A DNA stretch of 64,000 nt from Vampirovibrio chlorellavorus. Its GTDB lineage: Bacteria > Cyanobacteriota > Vampirovibrionia > Vampirovibrionales > Vampirovibrionaceae. Made by a program: the position numbers and the translations under genes. Where the stretch lies: contig CAIPMU010000020.1 in NCBI GenBank assembly GCA_903866275.1, positions 124,001-188,000 of the forward strand. Direction: 5' to 3'. Below the pieces are notes generated by a model. The model was not told the origin of the DNA. It made no database searches and saw only the letters and a list, made by a program, of their open reading frames with translations. Below, piece by piece: positions 2,163 to 49,494 of this stretch. Position 1 is the stretch's first letter. Every line of letters begins with the position of its first letter.

Positions 2163-2827
2163 ATGATTACCACCTGAACCAGGAGGGCACAAATGCTGGA
2201 GATGCAGAGCTAAAGATGCCACAGCCCCACTCTGTACTGGATGCCAAAGTTCCATAATCTCTGATTCTGCCATCGGGATAAATCCAGAATACGATACTTT
2301 TGGAAGGCCCATCCGCATTGGTGCCGCTGCCACCATACACACCATCCGGGTCTATATAAAAGTAGATGGCTGTATTTCCGGTTAAGCTTGTACAGAAATG
2401 GTGACCGATTGTATACATCATTGTGGCTCCATTATGGAGTCGAAGGCATTTGGAAATACCACTGCAACTGCCACTGATGCCACCCCCCGGATGGCCGTCA
2501 ACGACAAGTGCACCAGAGGTATCGATAGAAACATAGTTCATGTAGGGTGTCAGGTTATCGAGGGTGGTGCTCAGGGTCAGGATATTACTCGCTTTGTATT
2601 GCTGGAGTGCGGCACTGACCATACTCGCTGATTCTTTGGCAATGGCGTTGCTTTTTTCACTTTGAGAGCTGGCTAGAATTTTGGGGATAGCAATAGAAGC
2701 AATAACCCCAATGAGGGCTACAGTTATCATCACTTCGGCCAGTGTGAAACCTGAGAATCGAGGTGGTTGATGCATAAACGTCACTTGACCTTTCAGGGAA
2801 GTATGATTACCAGCTAAACCAGGAGGG
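2163..2827. repeat. 25-bp imperfect direct repeat bracketing the first prepilin gene
   Basis: Bases 2163-2187 and 2803-2827 are identical at 23 of 25 positions. On the minus strand each encodes the end of a prepilin-like protein (PSWFRW-stop and PSWFSW-stop) plus the following TCAT. The distal copy is therefore the tail of a second, otherwise missing pilin gene. The arrangement is what unequal recombination between tandem pilin copies would leave. Confidence 0.75.
2167..2775 (-). CDS. Prepilin-like protein with type IV/type II N-methylation motif
   Basis: Exported pseudopilin or minor pilin of 202 residues. From ATG 2775 the leader is short (MHQPPRFSG) and is followed by the prepilin-peptidase motif G/FTLAEVMITVALIGVIASI, with Glu at position 5 of the mature protein and the hydrophobic assembly helix. 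The C-terminal domain has conserved pieces shared with the second prepilin gene near 49 kb: DNLTPYMNYV, a Cys pair around CLRLHNG, and the PSWFxW terminus. A longer frame from TTG 2850 exists but would bury the leader, so 2775 is preferred. No pilus assembly genes are adjacent. The region is more AT-rich than its neighbours. Pilus class and function are not decidable. Confidence 0.85.
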   Translation of the reverse strand: MHQPPRFSGFTLAEVMITVALIGVIASIAIPKILASSQSEKSNAIAKESASMVSAALQQYKASNILTLSTTLDNLTPYMNYVSIDTSGALVVDGHPGGGISGSCSGISKCLRLHNGATMMYTIGHHFCTSLTGNTAIYFYIDPDGVYGGSGTNADGPSKSIVFWIYPDGRIRDYGTLASSTEWGCGIFSSASPAFVPSWFRW

Positions 2828-2850: not shown

Positions 2851-3231
2851 TCGTTCACCATAGTTTTATTATCGCTCGATTGTTTGAATACTTTAGTGTT
2901 TGTGCGGGGGGGGGGGGGGGGGGATTGTAACATTTCTTCACGTTTTAGTGCTTTGACCCATTTTCCCAAAGAAAGAGCCACTCATTTCGTGTGGGGTAGC
3001 CGATTTCAGGCTGTTTGGATACTCTCGAACCTGGTTCTGCAATGTCTAACGGGGTCCTCTTTACTCGTTTGAATTGAATGCATCGGGTTGTGACGCACTG
3101 GCCCCCCTGACGTGCGAATGACATTCAAAAATTCTTTTTAAAGATTGTTTGAGAATTGCCGATAACGAGACTAAAGCGCATATTACTTTTTAGTCAATTG
3201 GGCAACCACCCAAGATCGGCTATTTCAGGAC
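2851..3231. other. Intergenic region between divergent prepilin and cyclase genes
   Basis: Besides the G18 tract and the pilin remnant, this 380-bp stretch holds no convincing gene. It must contain promoters for both divergent genes, but no clear consensus -35/-10 pair is visible apart from the TTACAAT next to the homopolymer on the minus strand. Confidence 0.5.
2906..2923. repeat. 18-base G homopolymer (poly-C on the pilin strand)
   Basis: An uninterrupted run of 18 G lies about 130 bp upstream of the prepilin start when read on that gene's strand as C18. On the minus strand it is directly preceded by TTACAAT, resembling a -10 box, so the tract may lie at the start of the transcript. Runs of this length are prone to slipped-strand mispairing. 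A sequencing or assembly error in the count is possible. Confidence 0.9.
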
Positions 3232-48557: not shown

Positions 48558-48747
48558 TCGCTTGTCTTCGTTCTGATTGGATGACATGGCGTGGTGATTC
48601 GTGCAGTCTCGATAGTGATTTTTCGGGTTGAGTTGAGTATTTGCATGGGCTGAAGTCGTCTGTGGGGTTTTAAGAAATTTTTTTAAATGCTTTTTTGCGA
48701 GTTGCCCTCAAGTTTTTGGGTATCCGGACGATACTTGAATAGGTGAA

Positions 48748-49494
48748 TTGAATTTAAGTAGGAGTATTGAGAGTGTACCCCCCCCCCCCGAAAACTTAAT
48801 GATTGAGCTGCGATTGCTTTGGTGCTCTCTGCGCTCTTGGTTGGGGCGGCCTAGCCCTAGGCTGAGTGCGCTGGCTTTAAAGTGGCTGGGTTGGCTCCCT
48901 TCGGTGTGTCATCGTCGTTGGGCGAACGAGCAGGGCTTTACCTTGGCTGAATTGCTGATTTCCTTAGCGATTCTGGGTGTGATTGCCACGTTTACAATCC
49001 CTAAAATTATATCGGGTCAGCAAAATGGCAGATACAACACTGCAGCACACGAGGTGGTTGCGATGGTTTCTGCCGCTTATCAGCAGGCTCAGGCTGCTGG
49101 CACGGTGAATGGCAATACACAAATGGGGGATTTAACGCCTTACATGAATTATGTGAGGGTGGATACCAGTTCAACCATTAATGATCGTTTTGGCTGGGGG
49201 AATCAAAGTTGTTCTAGTTCTACGTGGATTTGTTTAAAACTTCATAATGGTGGCATTGCCTGGATGGCCTCTCCTAGCGCCAATGTTTCGTTTGGTGGGG
49301 CTTCAAGTTTAAACATGAACTGGTTGAATTTTGATCCGGATGCTTCCGTGAATCAAGCTGCCAGTGGTATCTCATTTGCGCTTTATTATAATGGCCAAAT
49401 TACTAACTTTCGTGATTTGAAATCTGGTACGGTCAATAGTAACGGGGCCGTGCCTGCAGAACCCAATAGCACCCCCAGTTGGTTTACTTGGTAG
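48748..49494 (+). CDS. Prepilin-like protein with long leader and poly-C tract
   Basis: Paralogue of the 2.2-kb prepilin. The N-methylation motif G/FTLAELLISLAILGVIATF begins about 65 residues after the first possible start, and the C-terminal domain shares DLTPYMNYVRVDTS, the Cys pair with CLKLHNGG, and the TPSWFTW end. Upstream the frame includes four Pro codons from a C12 tract. The in-frame TTG at 48748 lacks a usable ribosome binding site and the ATG at 48799 has none; the best start, GTG 48773 with TAGGAG 8 bases upstream, is out of frame at 12 C and in frame at 13. Expression may thus be phase-variable. A 48-residue leader from ATG 48799 would be exceptionally long. Confidence 0.75.
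   Translation: MNLSRSIESVPPPPENLMIELRLLWCSLRSWLGRPSPRLSALALKWLGWLPSVCHRRWANEQGFTLAELLISLAILGVIATFTIPKIISGQQNGRYNTAAHEVVAMVSAAYQQAQAAGTVNGNTQMGDLTPYMNYVRVDTSSTINDRFGWGNQSCSSSTWICLKLHNGGIAWMASPSANVSFGGASSLNMNWLNFDPDASVNQAASGISFALYYNGQITNFRDLKSGTVNSNGAVPAEPNSTPSWFTW
48778..48789. repeat. 12-base C homopolymer in the prepilin 5' coding region
   Basis: C12 immediately follows GTGTA, 3-16 bases after the well-placed GTG start at 48773. One added or two lost C would fuse that start to the prepilin frame. It is the second of only two long G/C runs seen in the window, both at prepilin loci. Confidence 0.9.

Follow-up and report, generated by a model that had tools for sequence, protein, structure and literature searches.

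The gene at positions 48,748–49,494 of a 64,000 nt stretch of Vampirovibrio chlorellavorus DNA (assembly GCA_903866275.1, contig CAIPMU010000020.1, positions 124,001–188,000; hereafter the window) encodes a type IV prepilin and carries a run of 12 C just behind its predicted start codon. Based on this anatomy and on the comparison with its paralogs, the gene was assigned, with a probability of about 0.8, to a prepilin family that is translationally phase-variable through slipped-strand changes in simple repeats. A preliminary description of the window, made from the DNA letters alone, had predicted that the gene is OFF at 12 C and ON at 13 C.

The start codon and the C tract

Reading from GTG 48773, the order is GTG, TA, C12 (48778–48789) and GAAAACTTAATG. 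At 12 C, the frame of this GTG is GTG TAC CCC CCC CCC CCG AAA ACT TAA, i.e. eight codons followed by a stop, and it joins the prepilin frame only when the number of C is 1 modulo 3 (10 or 13). The prepilin frame itself is open through GFTLAELL (Gly codon 48934–48936; Gly-Phe cleavage site 48934–48939) to TAG 49492–49494. A pure repeat was located between a start codon preceded by a Shine-Dalgarno sequence and the coding frame, as in contingency loci.

The start-picking rule used for the frame count given below also selected GTG 48773. Among the best four candidates listed by an automatic start scan, there was no in-frame start with a Shine-Dalgarno match of at least 4 nt at usable spacing. TTG 48748 would barely be within the mRNA, since it lies only ~14 nt downstream of the predicted sigma28-like −10 box. 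The preliminary description had named GTG 48773, with its ribosome binding site 8 nt upstream, as the start codon, and had claimed the stop after eight codons, the joining of the prepilin frame at 13 or 10 C and, at 12 C, access to that frame only from starts without a usable ribosome binding site. All of these claims were borne out, TTG 48748 being even less likely as a start than had been claimed; the overlap of the 12-C stop with ATG 48799 (TAATG) was absent from that description.

The window contained 14 C9 words compared to 1.1 in shuffles. The RNA structure at the 5′ end was not stronger than in shuffles, no Rfam family or tRNA was found, and a scan for sigma70 promoters was uninformative.

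Features of the two prepilin genes of the window (positions are those of the window)
Feature	Positions	Strand	Remarks
Sigma28/FliA-like promoter, TCAAGTTT-N11-GACGATAC (predicted)	48708..48734	+	13/16 consensus positions
Shine-Dalgarno sequence AGGAG	48760..48764	+	8 nt before GTG 48773
GTG, predicted start codon	48773..48775	+	Position homologous to the ATG of paralog ATGTA-C(n)
C12 tract, proposed slippage switch	48778..48789	+	Leader codons 2–6
Post-tract prepilin leader	48790..48936	+	Related to the leader of paralog L061 (prepilin frame); ends at the cleavage Gly
TAA, stop of the 12-C frame	48797..48799	+	Overlaps ATG 48799
ATG in prepilin frame, possible reinitiation site (TAATG)	48799..48801	+	Without Shine-Dalgarno sequence
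Mature pilin (185 amino acids) and stop	48937..49494	+	Predicted long N-terminal helix and beta-rich domain; predicted local distance difference test (pLDDT) 93
Second family prepilin	2167..2775	−	
Sigma28-like promoter of second prepilin, TAAAGTAT-N11-AGCGATAA (predicted)	2869..2895	−	
C18 tract (coding strand)	2906..2923	−	Outside the coding sequence, ~10 nt upstream of the −35 box

In the proposed mechanism, a short mRNA would be made from the sigma28-like promoter, and ribosomes would initiate at GTG 48773 and translate the C tract as part of the leader. Replication slippage would alter the number of C, with one frame in three reaching the prepilin and the other two stopping early. The ~10 tract-bearing members would switch independently, so that clonal cells would differ in the pilins that they expose.

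Tract layout and reading frames among the paralogs

The comparison covered one genome per species, with G000 denoting the genome of the window (3.0 Mb), G004 that of a sister species, and L numbers denoting loci. Start-anchored alignment revealed a layout common to many paralogs, consisting of the promoter, AAGGAG-N7-ATGTA-C(n)-GAAATC and the leader, in which the GTG-TA-C(n) of the window is homologous to ATG-TA-C(n). In the shared AAGGAG-N7-ATGTA-C(n)-GAAATC element, n was 7, 8, 8, 10 and 13, all out of frame; other paralogs, in which the context differed slightly and n was 10 or 13, were in frame, as were the base-interrupted tracts of L064-1795 (CCCCCCTCCCCC), L067 (CCCCCACCC) and L080. The repeat number sets the frame and homologs occur in different phases, again as in contingency loci. 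At L138, two neighbouring genes are identical over the 48 nt before ATGTTCGCA; the tract-free gene is in frame (ON) and the one with C10 is OFF.

When one rule was applied to G000 and G004 together, 7 repeat genes were in frame and 13 out of frame, compared to 42 in and 4 out for the repeat-free genes (Fisher test, 5e-6). The proportion of ~1/3 in frame is that expected for random repeat numbers. Some of the four repeat-free genes that were out of frame are probably wrong start picks by the rule.

At the same position in G004, the tracts ranged from C9 to C26, and CAGA, AAGA, GACA and CTCA repeats were also observed; a further genome, G003, carries an AGAC repeat. The differing repeat units at one position argue for selection on slippage and not on the encoded residues. 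From these patterns, we infer that the tracts do slip.

Association of the tracts with the prepilin family

A protein search with the window prepilin gave 40 matches in G000 and 42 in G004. About ten members in G000, and a comparable number in G004, have a slippery repeat directly behind the start. There were 13 C/G runs of at least 10 in G000, and nine of these were just 5′ of prepilin family members. A tenth, at the end of contig C9, is preceded by a family-type promoter and start, the gene being cut off by the contig end. By chance, 0.04 of the 13 runs would be expected at family members (P ~5e-23 for 10). For runs of at least 12, six out of seven were at family members, and the seventh was in a glycosyl hydrolase gene.

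Contigs were found to break at or beside poly-C runs or prepilin paralogs (G000:C9 end, G000:C3 start/C5 end and G006:C44 end), with C9 and C44 terminating inside the homopolymer runs. The family is therefore probably undercounted. A search for related loci among genome contigs gave one distant Vampirovibrio metagenome-assembled genome only.

The pilin and its leader

The features of a class III signal peptide were all present, namely the Gly, Phe+1, Glu5 and the hydrophobic helix. The N-terminus matched to PF07963 (31.3 bits, cut-off 21.2) and TIGR02532 (28.0, cut-off 16.3), the Pfam and NCBIfam support being limited to this prepilin N-terminus. The AlphaFold2 model (pLDDT 93.3) predicts a helix at residues 4–54 followed by strands, which corresponds to the pilin architecture. 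The globular domain matched no PDB entry, and so no solved pilin, at E 0.001, FimU being at rank 9 with E 0.92. The globular domains of pilins are very diverse, and a structural match to a solved pilin is no strict requirement.

Since the tract is upstream of the peptidase site, it is never part of the mature pilin, and changes of three C would leave the mature pilin unaltered because the leader is removed by the prepilin peptidase. The leader from GTG at 13 C would be ~54 amino acids, which is outside the usual range of 6–26 amino acids (PMC4471445); many paralogs have leaders of 8–25. The leaders of L061–L079 and of the window gene are unusually long (~50 amino acids); they share a conserved LGWLPxxCH motif, and the peptidase site is preceded by a hydrophobic stretch.

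For 11 long-leader paralogs, most of them OFF, the ratio of nonsynonymous to synonymous differences (pN/pS) was 0.30 in the leader behind the tract, where third-position changes dominated, and 0.44 in the first 60 mature codons. No premature stops were present in the prepilin frame. The leader ratio and the third-position changes indicate that the OFF copies are not decaying, and that the frame is translated and useful at least part-time. Judged by these substitutions, purifying selection acts on the leader behind the tract. OFF copies that selection keeps intact are a further feature of contingency loci.

Sigma28-like promoters

Genome-wide, the motif AAGTWT-N13-CGATA was found at 35 sites in G000 and 37 in G004, compared to two each for the reversed control. 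Approximately 21 of the 35 sites in G000, as read from the coordinates, were upstream of prepilin family members. The sigma28/FliA consensus used in scoring, TAAAGTTT-N11-GCCGATAA, was matched at 12 or more of 16 positions in 54/73 prepilin upstream regions and in 0/73 shuffled ones, and at 14/16 in the promoter of the flagellin L196. A sigma28/FliA-like promoter was seen upstream of most prepilin genes in both genomes. FliA itself is present (TIGR02479, 252 bits; curated cut-off 189.6). Based on the promoter matches and the presence of FliA, the prepilins are likely co-regulated with the flagellum via sigma28.

Tracts in related genomes

None of the long C tracts in G001–G003 was at a prepilin. 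A class-wide trait by descent was rejected, as 0/10 examined C/G tracts in G011 and G013 (same order) were near a prepilin.

The gut relatives (family f6) have poly-G runs in prepilin leaders, independent of the Vampirovibrio C tracts. Runs no more than 200 nt from a prepilin cleavage site accounted for 10/13 in 382 kb of G030 and 7/7 in 400 kb of G049. Many prepilins in G020, G025, G030, G035, G040, G044, G049, G053 and G057 have poly-G ~27 nt behind their start (example loci L279–L298, L215–L234 and L255–L274). In genus g15, most runs were exactly G10 (except in G057), with 91 such runs in G044; the start frame meets a stop within ~15 nt, and an extra G would be required in 13 of the 14 examined. 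A G11 run in G049 lies in an upstream open reading frame (ORF) of 16 amino acids that is followed by a terminator-like hairpin. The runs at G030:C1:83248 and 102603 are G12 and G14 (coding strand) near the open-frame start of non-prepilin ORFs of ~500 amino acids.

Such a fixed poly-G length is unlike random switching. It is tentatively suggested that slippery leader runs have at least two separate origins within the class that contains Vampirovibrio, and that the fixed G10 (or G11), the 0-frame stop and the uniform +1 of the gut genomes reflect either programmed slippage or a default-OFF state with rare ON cells at dozens of prepilins per genome.

Alternative explanations

The likeliest alternative is that the 12-C allele is attenuated, reinitiation at ATG 48799 allowing a full prepilin to be made whose leader is shorter (MIELRLLW...). 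The 12-C stop TAA 48797–48799 overlaps this ATG (48799–48801), and such a TAATG overlap is a classical arrangement for reinitiation. At two C8 paralogs (L063), the OFF ORF likewise ends at ATGA over an in-frame ATG, and the L061-related part of the window leader begins at ATG 48799. However, this ATG has no Shine-Dalgarno sequence, and the internal ATG is missing in L062, L064-1795, L079 and L090, which have Ile instead. Attenuation is a credible but less favoured account of the 12-C allele. It would turn the tract into a rheostat of three levels, high at 13 C, low at 12 C and off at 11 C, which is compatible with phase variation and alters the meaning of 12 C. The predicted switch gained strong support from the paralogs with their differing tract lengths and frames, whereas the 12-C state may be low and not OFF.

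Programmed slippage, in which slippage of RNA polymerase or the ribosome along the C run lets a fixed tract always yield a mixture of products and makes genetic switching unneeded, appears improbable for the window gene. The gut poly-G tracts, of nearly one length per genome and with the uniform need for +1, fit this explanation. In G000 and G004, however, the lengths scatter from 7 to 26, the units differ (C, CAGA, AAGA and CTCA), and the frames are mixed with ~1/3 ON, as mutational switching predicts.

It is more doubtful still that translation truly begins behind the tract, the tract being only 5′ untranslated region. ATG 48799 is in frame, and the leader from GTG exceeds the usual length; this ATG nevertheless lacks a ribosome binding site, and initiation ahead of the tract in L077, L135 and L140 yields an ordinary, tract-containing leader of 10–16 amino acids. 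A pseudogene with a dead frameshift, or an assembly error in the tract count, is very unlikely: homopolymers are error-prone and two contigs end within such runs, but the pattern recurs at many loci of both genomes and extends to tetranucleotide repeats, and the prepilin frame is free of premature stops, has pN/pS of 0.30–0.44 and gives a confident pilin model.

Some points weigh against phase variation itself. The switch is read, albeit strongly, from anatomy and comparison with a single genome for each species. Soo et al. (2015) described the V. chlorellavorus assembly as without single-nucleotide or indel microheterogeneity (PMC4451040), a statement that did not address individual tracts. 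TAATG 48797–48801 may make the 12-C allele leaky. Finally, mutS and mutL appear to be present, leaving no general loss of mismatch repair to explain instability.

Comparison with known systems

Phase variation by simple repeats is known chiefly from pathogens adapted to a host. The surface genes of Neisseria and Haemophilus, e.g. gonococcal pilC (Jonsson 1991, as cited in PMC4471445), share with the window gene an early pure repeat, one productive frame in three and a role in a surface structure. In contrast, the pilin-type subunits themselves would switch here, with ~10 tract genes per genome and the repeat in a cleaved leader, and the bacteria concerned are related to cyanobacteria instead of being pathogens of animals. 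Within-clone variation of type IV pilins is also known from pilE antigenic variation in Neisseria and pilin inversion in Moraxella (PMC11868660); these use recombination, whereas here simple repeats are found in many separate, apparently complete genes. A search of the open-access PMC literature gave no description of phase variation in Gastranaerophilales or Vampirovibrio, the latter being mentioned incidentally only; most subscription journals and preprints are outside this scope.

Repeat switching appears to control many pilin subunits at once in an algae-preying genus. The pilins are presumably surface-exposed and may act in prey attachment, and switching would enable clones to alter their pili as prey or phages change. 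Phase variation would also give a testable logic to the puzzling 40-gene prepilin family, and a connection with the timing of the flagellum (sigma28) is suggested as well.

The second window prepilin and a glycosyl hydrolase

The C18 tract of the second window prepilin is one of the ten family-associated runs. Being upstream of the promoter, it could act on transcription only. It resembles the poly-C promoters of Bordetella fim2, fim3 and fimX (PMC1891110), where genes for major fimbrial subunits are preceded by long runs of C. The Bordetella tracts act on transcription, unlike the 48778 tract, which lies inside the reading frame. By analogy, C18 is a possible transcriptional switch.

The glycosyl hydrolase gene with a long C run (L089:712-2001, G000:C13) encodes a GH8 protein (PF01270, 135.6 bits). 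Its C12 (L089:884-895) is in a linker behind the signal peptide and is in frame at 12, and the product is perhaps a second phase-variable secreted protein.
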